From: SAR324 cluster bacterium
GTDB lineage: Bacteria; SAR324; NAC60-12
NCBI GenBank assembly: GCA_015231885.1
Contig: JADGAT010000004.1
Span: 29,369-93,368 of the forward strand
Reading direction: 5' to 3'
DNA: 64,000 nt
Of this stretch, positions 12,942 to 40,816 are shown piece after piece. Positions within the stretch are counted from its first letter, which is position 1; each line of letters begins with the position of its first letter. The translations under genes were made by a program, and so were the position numbers. The notes under the pieces are model-generated. The model was given only the letters and a program-made list of their open reading frames with translations. It was not told where the DNA came from and made no database searches.

Positions 12942-13556
12942 CTACAGTTTTTTCAACAGTTCCACAATAGACGTGTGTCCCTTTTGGGAGGCCCATACCA
13001 TGGCTCCGTTGAGATCGGCTCCTTTAGATGCCAGCAGCCGCATGGTTGCGATTCGTCCTTTACGGCTGGCAAGAGTTAAAGCAGTCCAGCCTCCCTCGCT
13101 CACAGTGTTCACTTCAGCTCCTCCTTCCAGTAATGCTTGAACCGCTGTATTATGTCCATTCAAGGACGCCCACATCAAGGCGGTCCATTTTTTATGATCC
13201 TTAAAGTTGATATCTGCTCCCTGACTCAATAAATAGCGAATCATATCAACTTGCCCAATGGCCGCGGCCCACATGATTGGAGTCTGTCCTGTTATTTCCT
13301 GGATATTGACATCGGCACCATGCTGGATGAACAGTTTTGCCATTTCCACGCGATTCTCCAAGGCTGCCCACATTAAGGCAGCCTGGCCCACGTTATCTCT
13401 TGCATTCACATCAACGCCCTTGGCAAGATATTGCCTCACTTCATTCATATTGCCTTTGCGAGCGGCTTCTCTGAAGGCTTCTTCATCCTTACTTTGACAT
13501 CCTGTGGCCCACACGGCCACAAGTAACACAATCCAAATCCATCCTCTCTTTTTCAC
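12942..13556 (-). CDS. Ankyrin-repeat lipoprotein
   Basis: The 204-residue protein has a lipoprotein signal peptide ending in the lipobox ATGC (lipidated Cys near 20), followed by five or six ankyrin repeats. Recognisable units are VDVNARDNVGQAALMWAALE, ADVNIQEITGQTPIMWAAAI, ADINFKDHKKWTALMWASLN and AEVNTVSEGGWTALTLASRK. It is probably anchored in the envelope and binds a protein partner. The start is a GTG with a GAGG ribosome binding site just after the selD stop, so it is likely the last gene of the selD transcript. Confidence 0.85.
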   Translation of the reverse strand: MKKRGWIWIVLLVAVWATGCQSKDEEAFREAARKGNMNEVRQYLAKGVDVNARDNVGQAALMWAALENRVEMAKLFIQHGADVNIQEITGQTPIMWAAAIGQVDMIRYLLSQGADINFKDHKKWTALMWASLNGHNTAVQALLEGGAEVNTVSEGGWTALTLASRKGRIATMRLLASKGADLNGAMVWASQKGHTSIVELLKKL

Positions 13557-13566
13557 AGATAACCTC

Positions 13567-14622
13567 TCATTTAAAAATCAAAAATTTTTGTTCCTGTGGA
13601 CGAACCTGCCCAATGACTCGCGCATCCATCACTCCTGCTTTGTGCAATTCTTGTATGATGAATTCGCCTTGTGCAGCGGGTACAGAAACCAATAATCCTC
13701 CACTGGTTTGAGGGTCTACAAAAATTTCTTCATGCCAGGAAGACAGATTTCCGACAAACCAAGTGTCGGCAGAAACCTTAAGCCTATTGGAACGATTCAC
13801 TCCTGTGCTCATACCCCGCTTATACATTTCCAGAGCTTCTTGCATCACTGGTACAGACGCCGTGTCGATTTCCAGGGTGACAGCAGATGCTTTTGCCATT
13901 TCCATAGAATGGCCTGCCAGGCCAAAACCTGTGATGTCCGTAGCCGCATGCACATCAAAGGAAGACAATACCTCTGCTGGCACTTTATTTAAGATGGTCA
14001 GAAGCCGCAGGCATTTTTCCATGGCCTCTGGAGAAACCCACTTTTTTAAATTAGCATTGAATAAAACTCCACTGCCGATGGGTTTTGTCAAGATCAGCAC
14101 ATCGCCAGGCTGCGCTCCTGCATTGGCCCAATAGCGTTCAGGGTGGACGATTCCTGTCACGGATAATCCAAACTTAGGCTCTTCGTCTTCCACACTGTGC
14201 CCTCCTGCTAAGACGGCACCCGCTTCTGTGATTTTATCCAGGGCGCCCTCAATGATTTCAAGCAGGATCTGTTGATCCAGTTTGTCAGCAGGAAAGCCAA
14301 CCAGGTTCAAGCAAGTGATCGGTTTTCCTCCCATTGCATACACATCGCTCAGTGCATTGGCGGCTGCAATTTGGCCAAAGAGACGAGGATCATCCACCGG
14401 TGGTGTGATAAAATCAGCAGTGGTGATGAGTGCCATTTCATCATTTAAACGGTAAACGGCACCATCATCGTTATTCTCAAATCCTACCAGAAGATTGGGA
14501 TCCTGCTTTTTGGGCAGTTGATCCAGTAATTTCTGAAGCCCGACCGGACTTATTTTTGCTGCTCAACCACATGTTTTAGCAAGGCTGGTCAGCGTTGCTT
14601 TTTTCAATAATTTATTTAGCAT
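13567..14622 (-). CDS. selD: Selenide, water dikinase SelD, a selenoprotein with an in-frame UGA codon
   Basis: SelD makes selenophosphate from selenide and ATP, the selenium donor for selenocysteine and selenouridine. Read from the ATG at 14622, the frame gives MLNKLLKKATLTSLAKTCG, then UGA (14565-14563), then AAKISPVGLQ and on to the stop at 13567: 351 residues with selenocysteine at 20. The U-A-A-K-I-S context matches the active-site Cys/Sec of SelD (Cys17 of E. coli). Downstream are FENNDDGAVYRL, YAMGGKPITCLNLVGFP, LAGGHSVEDEEPKFG and DVHAATDITGFGLAGH, all typical of SelD. Conventional calling would start at 14436 and lose the catalytic N-terminus. The first codons overlap the preceding gene by 11 bases. 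Total length fits the family (347 in E. coli). Confidence 0.95.
14536..14565 (-). promoter_or_regulatory. Bacterial SECIS element in selD
   Basis: Eleven bases after the UGA, the minus strand can form a 6-bp stem AAGTCC/GGGCTT (14551-14546 with 14541-14536, one G-U pair) closed by the four-base loop GGTC (14545-14542). The loop begins 17 bases after the UGA. Position and a loop containing GU agree with bacterial SECIS hairpins that bind SelB. It lies wholly inside the coding sequence. Confidence 0.8.
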
Positions 14623-15613
14623 AATTCTTTGTATTATTTACTACAGAAAGACGCATTCGCACAAACCCAAATGCTAAAAAAATCAACACGACGAATAAAC
14701 CCACTCCCAAATAAATATAGATCGTTTGGCCCATGGGGATGGCACTCAGATGAATTTTCAATTGAGGATTATCCAGCGCCTTCATTTTCCATACCTCAAA
14801 CTGTGCAGATCCAAAGGATTCCAGACCAGCCTTTTTTAAATGAGGAGATTCTATCTTAATTTGCCCGGCAGGTATCAAAATCTGTCCCTTCTGCAAAGAG
14901 TAGCGGTATTGTTTTTCCAATTGATGGCTGCCAAAGGGAACCGCAATGTTGTATTTAAAAATCAAGGTAACGGGGCCTGGTGCAAATTGCCGAATAATCT
15001 GCAATTGTTGACCGGCCAGTTGATATACATCCTTGCTGGAAGACGATTCGTGTATTTGACTGAATGCCTGGTAAGCATCCGGCAGTTCAAAGACCATAGG
15101 GTTGTTTTGTGTGTCAATGACATCTGGACCTGGATTCACAATCCGCAGAACTTCGGTGATTTGCAGCATTTCCATACCAGGCTCAATGAAAACGGCAACG
15201 CTTTGGAGTTGAAGGTCCTTGGTTTTTTCAGAAACCCCCGGAACAATGACATTGATATCAATGGTTTTTTGATCTGGTTGAAGAAAGAAAAATTTGGAAC
15301 TGATCAATTCCCCCTGGTATCGACTGCCAATCTGGTAAGCTGCCTCGGTTTCTGAGAGCAATCCCTCAAATTTAAAGCGTCCCGCTACTGTTTTGGTGCG
15401 GGCAAGCGGTCCATCGGTACGAAGCTGCCCTTGTTTGTCTAATGTGAATTTTAAAAGCACCACCGCAATATCATCGTCTTCAATAATTTTTCCCCCAGAG
15501 TGTATAAGACGGCCAGTCACTTCAAAGGTCGTTTGGGCAAGCAGACCAGGAATCTCCACGATGCCAATAAAGACGCAAACCAGGAAAATAATTTGTTTGT
15601 ACTTCCAATGCAT
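14612..15613 (-). CDS. Secreted protein with a C-terminal membrane anchor, function unknown
   Basis: No family was recognised with confidence. The 333-residue protein has a signal peptide (about 1-26, ending near GLLAQ) and an extracytoplasmic region rich in beta-strand-like segments. The N-terminal part (TFEVTGRLIHSGGK, GRFKFEGLLSETEAAYQIG) resembles carboxypeptidase-regulatory/CNA-B type folds. One transmembrane helix (about 298-320) and a short basic tail end the protein. It therefore looks periplasmic and tethered at its C-terminus. It overlaps the selD start by 11 bases and lies 67 bases downstream of moaE. The context does not define a role. Confidence 0.75.
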   Translation of the reverse strand: MHWKYKQIIFLVCVFIGIVEIPGLLAQTTFEVTGRLIHSGGKIIEDDDIAVVLLKFTLDKQGQLRTDGPLARTKTVAGRFKFEGLLSETEAAYQIGSRYQGELISSKFFFLQPDQKTIDINVIVPGVSEKTKDLQLQSVAVFIEPGMEMLQITEVLRIVNPGPDVIDTQNNPMVFELPDAYQAFSQIHESSSSKDVYQLAGQQLQIIRQFAPGPVTLIFKYNIAVPFGSHQLEKQYRYSLQKGQILIPAGQIKIESPHLKKAGLESFGSAQFEVWKMKALDNPQLKIHLSAIPMGQTIYIYLGVGLFVVLIFLAFGFVRMRLSVVNNTKNYAK

Positions 15614-28913: not shown

Positions 28914-30644
28914 ATGAATCTTTCATTTTCTCAGCTGTTATGGCAGACCACAGAGTCTGAATCGAAGCCTCAACAGATTGCAAATCTATGCCGAGAAATG
29001 AAAATTTCTCCGACCTTTGCTAAAATTTTAATCAACCGCAATCTGTGTGAACCAGAAACGATCCATCAATATTTAAATCCAGCACGTCAGCAATGCCATG
29101 ATCCTTTTTTGATGCATGACATGAACAAGGCGGTCCAACGCGTTTATTCCGCCCTAAAGCGCCGTGAAAAGGTCGTTATCTATGGAGACTATGATGTTGA
29201 TGGAACGGCAGGAACCGTCATCTTGTACAGGTATCTCAAACGTATTGGGCTCCGCATCTATTATTTCATTCCCCTGCGTTTGAAAAATGGTTATGGCATG
29301 ACCGAATCGACCTTGCTGGAGCTCCATCACAAAAAAACAGATCTCATCATCACAATCGACAATGGAATCACCGCAATTGCAGAATCACGATTGTTACATC
29401 GGCTTGGGGTAGATTTAATCATTACAGACCACCACCAGACCTGTTCGGAACAACCGATTGCAGAAGCCATCTTAAATCCCCAAAAGCCCGAATGCCCTTA
29501 TCCTTTTGAGGGATTGAGCGGGACGGGAGTTGCTTTCAAATTTCTGGAAGCCTTTGATCAATTTTTAACTGAACAAGGGTATTGGGATCTATCAGGTTAT
29601 ATTCGTCCAGATTTGCAGAGAGATTTGGACTTGGTGGCTTTTGCGACAATTGCGGACCGGGTACCCTTGATTGATGAAAACCGGTATTTTGTAAGAGAAG
29701 GATTGGAAATGATCAATTCCAACCCTCGTCCCGGCTTACAAGCATTGATCAAAGAAAGTAACATCAGGGGATACATCACCCCAAACATCATCAGTTTTAA
29801 ACTGGCCCCCAAAATCAATGCTGTTGGACGATTGAGCGACCCCAACCTGGGCGTGCATCTGCTGCTCTCGCATTCACAGTCAGAAGCCAGGCAGCATGCG
29901 GTGAAGCTCATTCAGATCAATACAGAAAGGCAGCAAATCGAGTATCATGTGCTCAAATCAGCATTGTCCCTGGCAGACCGTCAACAAGATCAGGATATGA
30001 TCATCCTGGTCAATGAGAGCTGGCACTCTGGAGTGATTGGGAGTGTTGCCGCAAAAATTGCGGCACGTTTCCAAAAGCCCACAGTGATTGTAACATTGTT
30101 TGAAGACCAGCTGGCGATTGGATCTATCCGCAGTGTCGGAAATTTTGACATCTGTTCTGCGTTGCAAGACTGCAATGAGTTGCTGGACAAATTTGGCGGG
30201 CACAAAGCAGCAGCAGGTATCAGCCTACAGACAAAGCACATTGAAGTGTTTTGTAAACAATTTAGGCAAACCATCCCCTCCGGCTTTGCAAAAGCAATGG
30301 ATCATGAAGCTCTAAAAATTGAGGCCTGGGTCGGGTTACAGGATTTAAAAGATGGTCTTGTACATGAGTTGCTGCAAATGTCACCATTTGGTTCTCATAA
30401 CCCTGAACCCATATTGGGAATCAAAAAAACACGTTTAAAAGACATCACGGTTTTTGGCAACCAACATCTTAAATTTTGTGTGAATACTGCAGAGATGGAT
30501 ATGGAGGTCTTTGCCTGGGATCACTCCGATTGGCAAACCAAACTGGAAGGGCTATTGGATCTTGCTATTATTCTCCAAATGCACCATGTCTCTCACAATG
30601 CACCATTACAGTTCAAAGCCATTGATATTAAACCAACGTCATAA
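28914..30644 (+). CDS. recJ: Single-stranded-DNA exonuclease RecJ, copy 1
   Basis: RecJ degrades single-stranded DNA 5' to 3' in recombination and mismatch repair. The 576-residue protein has the DHH-family motifs in order: VIYGDYDVDGTAG (about 81-93), DLIITIDNGI, LIITDHHQTC (about 168-177), LVAFATIADRVPL and, in the DHHA1 part, WHSGVIGSVAAKIA and GGHKAAAGISL. Length matches E. coli RecJ (577). The residue after DVDG is Thr rather than the usual Ile/Val, a minor change. It lies just downstream of recC in genome order. A second recJ gene is at 39134-40816. Confidence 0.95.
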   Translation: MNLSFSQLLWQTTESESKPQQIANLCREMKISPTFAKILINRNLCEPETIHQYLNPARQQCHDPFLMHDMNKAVQRVYSALKRREKVVIYGDYDVDGTAGTVILYRYLKRIGLRIYYFIPLRLKNGYGMTESTLLELHHKKTDLIITIDNGITAIAESRLLHRLGVDLIITDHHQTCSEQPIAEAILNPQKPECPYPFEGLSGTGVAFKFLEAFDQFLTEQGYWDLSGYIRPDLQRDLDLVAFATIADRVPLIDENRYFVREGLEMINSNPRPGLQALIKESNIRGYITPNIISFKLAPKINAVGRLSDPNLGVHLLLSHSQSEARQHAVKLIQINTERQQIEYHVLKSALSLADRQQDQDMIILVNESWHSGVIGSVAAKIAARFQKPTVIVTLFEDQLAIGSIRSVGNFDICSALQDCNELLDKFGGHKAAAGISLQTKHIEVFCKQFRQTIPSGFAKAMDHEALKIEAWVGLQDLKDGLVHELLQMSPFGSHNPEPILGIKKTRLKDITVFGNQHLKFCVNTAEMDMEVFAWDHSDWQTKLEGLLDLAIILQMHHVSHNAPLQFKAIDIKPTS

Positions 30645-39133: not shown

Positions 39134-40816
39134 ATGCCCTTATACAAAATCTGGCAATTGCCAACTCCTCCTAAACATGATCTGGTCGAACAACTCAGCC
39201 AAGCATTTCAGCTATTCCCACTCGTCTCTTCCATTTTAATCCGGCGCGGCTATACCACAGTCGAGGAGGTTGAGGCATTTTTATCCCCTCAACTTTCCAG
39301 ATTACATGACCCGTACCTCATGCGGGATATGAAAGAGGCCGTTTGTCTGTTGAAACGCACTATCTTGTCGAACAAGCGTATTGTCATCTTAGGAGATTAT
39401 GATGTGGATGGTATCACAGCAACCACAATGATGACACTGTTTTTAAATGAATGCGGTTGTAATAATACAGATTATTTCATTCCGAATCGTTTTGAACATG
39501 GATACGGTCTAACACAAGCCAGTGTCGATGTTTTGCTGGGAATGAAGCCCGATTTAGTGCTGACCGTCGATAATGGCATTACCGCAGTCCGTGAGGTACA
39601 GCGACTTCATGAGCATGGCATTAAGACATTGATCACCGACCATCATTTGCCCTATCAGGACAATATTCCGGCAGGAGTGATTCTGAATCCGAATCATCCG
39701 GATTGCAACTATCCTGATAAAAAAATTTCAGGCTGTGGGGTTGCTTTGAAACTATTAATGGCAATGAGAAAAGAATTCAGGGATAGCCAATACTGGTCCA
39801 GTCAACGACCAGAGCCTAATCTAAAGTCATACCTGGATCTGGCAGCATTGGGAACTGTCGCTGACGTTGTTCCCCTGGTCAACGAAAATCGTCTTCTTGT
39901 GTATCATGGCATAAAGGTGATGAATACCCAGCCCCGTTTTGGCATTCAAGCTCTTGCACAGCTTAAAAATGTAAGAACCATCACTTCTCAGACATTAGCA
40001 TTTCAATTTGCACCCTTGCTCAATGCTGCAGGAAGAATGCATGAAGCTTCTGCAGGAGTGAAATTATTGCTCAGCACGGATCTGCACAAGGCTGCGGAGA
40101 TTGCTAAATCACTGGATCAAGTTAACAATGAACGTCGTACCAGAGAAGCACAGATGCTCCAACTCGCACTAGAACAGGCAAAGGGACTACAACATAAAAG
40201 CAGCTTGGTGGTGACCTCGTCAGAATTTCACGAGGGAATCAGTGGAATTGTGGCAGCACGACTGATGGAGCATTTTTATAAACCCGCATTTGTATTTGCT
40301 GTAAATGGAGAGTTTTATAAAGGATCCGCACGCTCCATTCCTGAGCTTCATATTAAAAATGCTCTCGATCAGTGTCAAGGATACCTGGAAAAATATGGAG
40401 GACATGCTGCGGCTGCAGGTTGTACAATTCACCAATCACGATTTGAAGCATTTACCAAAAAATTTGAGGCATTGTGTCTCGAAGAATTGACACCCTCCCC
40501 ACAGCCTCTGCTGCAGCTTGATGGGAAGCTGGAGATAGAGATGATAGGCTGGGATTTAATCGAACAACTGGAACTCCTGCAGCCTTTTGGCGCGATTAAT
40601 TCACCGCCTATTTTCTCCATTCCGGCACCTCAACAATCCTATCAGATTATAAAAAGCACACATGCCAAATGGAATTTTCGAAGGCTGGAGATTATGGGAT
40701 GGAATTTAGCCAAACCCTTTTACGAAAATCCTCCAAAGAGTTTAGCTGTTCATTTGGGTATCAACGAATTTCGTGGAGAACGAAAAATTCAATTAGTCGT
40801 GCAAGCATTCCAATGA
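39134..40816 (+). CDS. recJ: Single-stranded-DNA exonuclease RecJ, copy 2
   Basis: The 560-residue protein shows the full RecJ motif set: VILGDYDVDGITATT, VLTVDNGI, LITDHHLPY, LAALGTVADVVPL, FAPLLNAAGRMHEAS, EFHEGISGIVAARLME and YGGHAAAAGCTI. The ITA after DVDG is closer to the RecJ consensus than the corresponding TAG of copy 1. The C-terminal OB region ends FRGERKIQLVVQAFQ. Start ATG at 39134. It is divergent from the outer-membrane gene upstream and convergent with the secreted-protein pair downstream. It may be the main housekeeping RecJ, but relative roles cannot be set from sequence alone. Confidence 0.94.
   Translation: MPLYKIWQLPTPPKHDLVEQLSQAFQLFPLVSSILIRRGYTTVEEVEAFLSPQLSRLHDPYLMRDMKEAVCLLKRTILSNKRIVILGDYDVDGITATTMMTLFLNECGCNNTDYFIPNRFEHGYGLTQASVDVLLGMKPDLVLTVDNGITAVREVQRLHEHGIKTLITDHHLPYQDNIPAGVILNPNHPDCNYPDKKISGCGVALKLLMAMRKEFRDSQYWSSQRPEPNLKSYLDLAALGTVADVVPLVNENRLLVYHGIKVMNTQPRFGIQALAQLKNVRTITSQTLAFQFAPLLNAAGRMHEASAGVKLLLSTDLHKAAEIAKSLDQVNNERRTREAQMLQLALEQAKGLQHKSSLVVTSSEFHEGISGIVAARLMEHFYKPAFVFAVNGEFYKGSARSIPELHIKNALDQCQGYLEKYGGHAAAAGCTIHQSRFEAFTKKFEALCLEELTPSPQPLLQLDGKLEIEMIGWDLIEQLELLQPFGAINSPPIFSIPAPQQSYQIIKSTHAKWNFRRLEIMGWNLAKPFYENPPKSLAVHLGINEFRGERKIQLVVQAFQ

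Follow-up and report, generated by a model that had tools for sequence, protein, structure and literature searches.

The window, by which we mean the whole 64,000-nucleotide stretch of DNA that was analysed, carries a selD gene between a gene for a membrane protein and one for an ankyrin-repeat protein (Table 1). The selD product scored 380 bits against the curated SelD profile TIGR00476 (cut-off 125) and contains both the AIRS (PF00586) and AIRS_C (PF02769) domains, which places it in the SelD family. The order moaE, membrane-protein gene (14612-15613), selD is kept in a genome of the same genus, and the same order plus the ankyrin gene in a genome of the same family. Only one copy of SelD was found in this genome, a 241-contig draft. 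Elsewhere in the window, two genes (28914-30644 and 39134-40816) resemble recJ-type exonucleases by eye.

Translation confirmed the claim of the first-pass annotation that the selD frame (14622-13567, reverse strand) is intact save for one TGA, located at codon 20 (14565-14563); the terminator is also TGA. The residues around the internal UGA read T-C-G-U-A-A-K-I, where U stands for the UGA codon. As that annotation had also proposed, the UGA lies at the catalytic site, aligning with the Cys of the G-C-x-x-K motif in the PDB relatives 3u0o and 2yye, which we take to be the SelD proteins of E. coli and Aquifex and whose aligned Cys we take to be catalytic. In each protein a Lys follows three residues after the Cys or Sec position (G-U-A-A-K here, G-C-G-C-K in 3u0o, and G-C-A-A-K in 2yye). 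A plain ORF call starts at ATG 14436 and, as foreseen, loses the first 62 residues, including the UGA-encoded position and the nearby Lys.

Table 1. Features of the selD locus, in window coordinates.
Feature	Position	Strand	Basis
selD, selenide water dikinase, 351 aa, predicted Sec at residue 20	13567..14622	-	TIGR00476, AIRS/AIRS_C, one UGA
In-frame UGA, predicted Sec codon at the catalytic Cys/Sec site	14563..14565	-	alignment to 3u0o, 2yye; relatives
Putative bacterial SECIS hairpin, 6 bp stem, GGUC loop	14536..14551	-	fold, covariation, frozen loop synonymous sites
Truncated 289-aa ORF of a plain ORF caller, start ATG 14436	13567..14436	-	ORF list
Upstream membrane-protein gene, overlaps the selD start by 11 bases	14612..15613	-	ORF list; no Pfam match
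Downstream ankyrin-repeat gene, conserved neighbour of selD	12942..13556	-	domain search, neighbourhood comparison

The class of this genome, which we take to be SAR324, includes Candidatus Lambdaproteobacteria RIFOXYD2_FULL_56_26 (contig 57 of genome G043 is the sequence of MFNF01000057.1 over the stretch tested). Of the same-class SelD matches, 45 extend over the catalytic site; each has UGA there, and no Cys was seen; the UGA is also the single one in frame in every match except a broken copy in genome G025. That copy (G025:C1:69854-70878) appears fragmented, with multiple stops that include TAA, TAG, and TGA, and assembly frameshift errors are possible there. Both searches combined gave 110 SelDs, with UGA at the site in 98, Cys in 12, and nothing else, the site codon being verified base by base for the fetched sequences. 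One genome (G048) has two different Sec-SelD genes, L115 and L148, which are 61% and 45% identical to that of the window and are found on separate contigs and in separate parts of the tree. Since TGA is one base from TGC or TGT, the codon could be a damaged Cys codon arising from a sequencing error or in a pseudogene. The probability of such damage is negligible: a base error is ruled out because every same-class SelD extending to the site shares the UGA, across independent assemblies, and the rest of the selD frame is intact and the Sec machinery (see below) is present.

We examined the sequence 3′ of the UGA for a SECIS element, the first-pass annotation having described a hairpin with a GGTC loop 11 bases past this codon. 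The hairpin was found (AAGUCC-GGUC-GGGCUU), its first base exactly 11 nt past the UGA. The bSECIS model specifies an apical loop of 3-9 nt, an upper stem of 4-16 bp, G in the first two loop positions, a UGA-to-loop distance of 16-37 nt, and an MFE of −7.5 kcal/mol or lower (quoted in PMC13188914). The selD hairpin fits this geometry, with a 4-nt GGUC loop, 6 bp, and 17 nt from UGA to loop, and the isolated hairpin misses the energy threshold at −5.9 kcal/mol (z = −1.26; 17 of 200 shuffles fold equally well), the 71-nt context reaching −17.1 kcal/mol (z = −1.32). Six pairs arise in 7 to 9% of synonymous recodings of the hairpin region, and six pairs together with a GGUC loop in just 0.6%. An Rfam search around selD returned nothing meaningful. 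The folding energy of this single sequence is not significant and does not prove a SECIS.

Conservation in relatives decides the question, and it argues that the selD hairpin is more than a chance fold. Among 33 distinct relatives, standard pairs occupy 94.9% of the pair cells of the stem, and 26 cells show double changes, a number reached by none of 500 shuffles; when structures were slid along the same alignment, standard pairs fell to 54% or less. Restricted to the 39 rows with 55% identity or more, the alignment shows GGUC as the loop in 37, and the codons of the loop are nearly frozen (CCG in 38/39, GUC in 37/39), compared with mixed usage elsewhere in those genes, where CCG accounts for 194 of 623 Pro codons and GUC for 237 of 927 Val codons. 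Counting either of two registers of the hairpin, all stem pairs are present in 49 of the 98 UGA genes versus 0 of 11 Cys-SelDs. We accept the hairpin as a probable SECIS because the stem co-varies and the synonymous sites of the loop are nearly frozen in relatives, and not on account of its energy. These data also bear on the reading in which translation truly ends at the UGA and the functional product is the shorter protein from ATG 14436. That start codon is available, and some termination at the UGA is to be expected, but the short product would be without the catalytic loop, the 62 codons before the ATG keep SelD sequence in relatives from about residue 2, and a conserved SECIS would serve no purpose; we regard this reading as very improbable.

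The two registers were defined by counting the U of UGA as nt 1. When all relatives were folded, the window and most sequences of its order took register A, with the loop at nt 21-24; register B, with the loop at nt 25-28, was taken by L150 and L151 of family f2, by five family f3 sequences, and by two sequences from outside. In register B 100% of cells are paired, with 4 double changes (0/500 shuffles), and register A scored on the register B sequences was no better than shuffled. In a quick SelD tree L124 groups as sister to L150 and L151 (support 88), and its sequence can form the hairpin in either register. L112 (register A) and L151 (register B) encode the same peptide, UAAKLSPVGLSE, and different synonymous codons build the two registers. 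The registers lie 4 nt apart and the loop is mostly GGUC in both (L112, L124, L150, L151, L142, L143, L145, L146, and L032). We lean towards the interpretation that the SECIS moved by 4 nt within one SelD clade while the Sec UGA stayed fixed, so that a recoding signal would have been relocated by mostly synonymous change. No report of SECIS relocation within a SelD clade was found in the literature searched, a search that was not exhaustive. The two positions could serve as a small natural test of how strict SelB is on spacing.

The first-pass annotation had expected SelA, SelB, and tRNA-Sec in this organism, and the genome encodes all three: a tRNA-Sec (62.9 bits; ARAGORN agrees, reporting tRNA-SeC with anticodon tca), SelA (TIGR00474, 526 bits, cut-off 268), and SelB with winged-helix domains. 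SelU was also found (320 bits). A UGA where homologues have Cys thus occurs in a genome with tRNA-Sec, SelA, SelB, and SelD all present. Of the 52 genomes of the class, 48 have SelB and the remaining four are drafts with completeness of 73 to 89%. Two SAR324 single-cell genomes have been tabulated as 'orphan SelD' (PMC5029168, Table 1); because SelB is so widespread in the class, genome incompleteness would be a likely explanation for these cases.

A genome-wide reassignment of UGA, such as the UGA-to-Trp change of code 4, would likewise open the selD frame without any Sec. However, TGA terminates 17 of the 47 genes in the window, and the genome encodes RF2 (494.9 bits), whose gene prfB (L155, G000:C174) carries the classic CUU-UGA +1 frameshift site, indicating that UGA is an ordinary stop here. 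The selD UGA moreover aligns with Cys, not Trp, and a read-through scan of the window found no UGA gene besides selD; other read-through candidates in the window were set aside, being antisense to selD or located where no gene was recognised. Reassignment is therefore exceedingly unlikely. The base that follows the frameshift site of prfB is A; at RF2 sites of this kind it is usually C. A TAG inside prfB was considered as a lesion and rejected, since it falls in the frame that precedes the normal RF2 +1 frameshift site.

Further selenoproteins had been anticipated as well, and we found five more genes in the genome with UGA at redox-Cys sites. They encode SelW (L132, UGA in C-A-V-U), a peroxiredoxin (L133, T-P-N-U), a TlpA-like protein (L134, W-U-P-S-C), a second TlpA-like protein (L152, contig C172 of G000, I-U-I-N-C), and a peroxiredoxin-like protein (L153, contig C215 of G000, G-U-V-I-C). 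Candidate hairpins can be drawn 3′ of the UGAs in all five, and the thioredoxin-fold genes L152 and L153, with UxxC motifs, are likely selenoprotein genes. In region L154 (G000:C231:9800-13200), a UGA-containing peroxiredoxin gene is flanked by two glutaredoxin-like genes. No UGA was found in the glutaredoxin-family matches of the genome or in its three molybdopterin-family matches, and hence no Sec formate dehydrogenase; a search of the genome for AhpD-like proteins found none. Because the five further genes and selD make six, the genome meets the definition of 'selenoprotein-rich', which is at least six selenoprotein genes (PMC5029168). This genome, from an uncultured bacterium of the Lambdaproteobacteria/SAR324 class, thus has every part of a Sec system and no fewer than six predicted selenoprotein genes.

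Together, these results suggest that the gene almost certainly encodes a Sec-containing selenophosphate synthetase in which UGA is read as Sec, both Sec insertion and enzyme activity being deduced from sequence. SelB carrying Sec-tRNA-Sec would bind the hairpin (14551-14536) and decode the UGA (14565-14563) as Sec, yielding the 351-residue SelD with Sec20 in a flexible N-terminal loop that would handle selenide. The product, selenophosphate, would be passed to SelA for synthesis of Sec-tRNA and to SelU for formation of 2-selenouridine in tRNA. Because the genome yielded no SelD other than this one with its predicted Sec, production of full-length SelD would need SelD's own activity, a positive feedback to be expected in any organism whose sole SelD contains Sec. 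The result corrects the annotation of selD in this lineage.

Among bacterial selenoprotein families, only one is more widespread than Sec-SelD. Many species have SelD as a selenoprotein (PMC4561486), it ranks with the most frequent selenoproteins of the marine GOS data (PMC2398784), and 394 selenophosphate synthetase selenoproteins have been counted in 383 organisms (PMC5029168, Table 3). The finding is correct and ordinary, Sec-SelD being already well known in bacteria; all predictions of the first-pass annotation that were open to testing proved right, and its sole overstatement was the surprise it implied, since such proteins are common. Bacterial examples of Sec-containing SelD/SPS2 are those of H. 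influenzae and Eubacterium acidaminophilum. About 310 residues of the window's SelD align with E. coli SelD (3u0o) and Aquifex SelD (2yye), with a common G-C/U-x-x-K motif, and the two chains as aligned have Cys where Sec is predicted here. The SECIS of E. coli fdhF is a hairpin about 11 nt past the UGA with a GGUC loop and a bulged U; the selD hairpin has like spacing and the same loop, but its six pairs, one of them U-G, are continuous, with no bulged U. Compared to known Sec-SelD/SPS2 proteins, the gene described here belongs to the same family, with UGA at the same catalytic site and a putative SECIS immediately 3′ in the coding region, and differs only in its lineage (the Ca. Lambdaproteobacteria/SAR324 class) and in the exact sequence of its SECIS.
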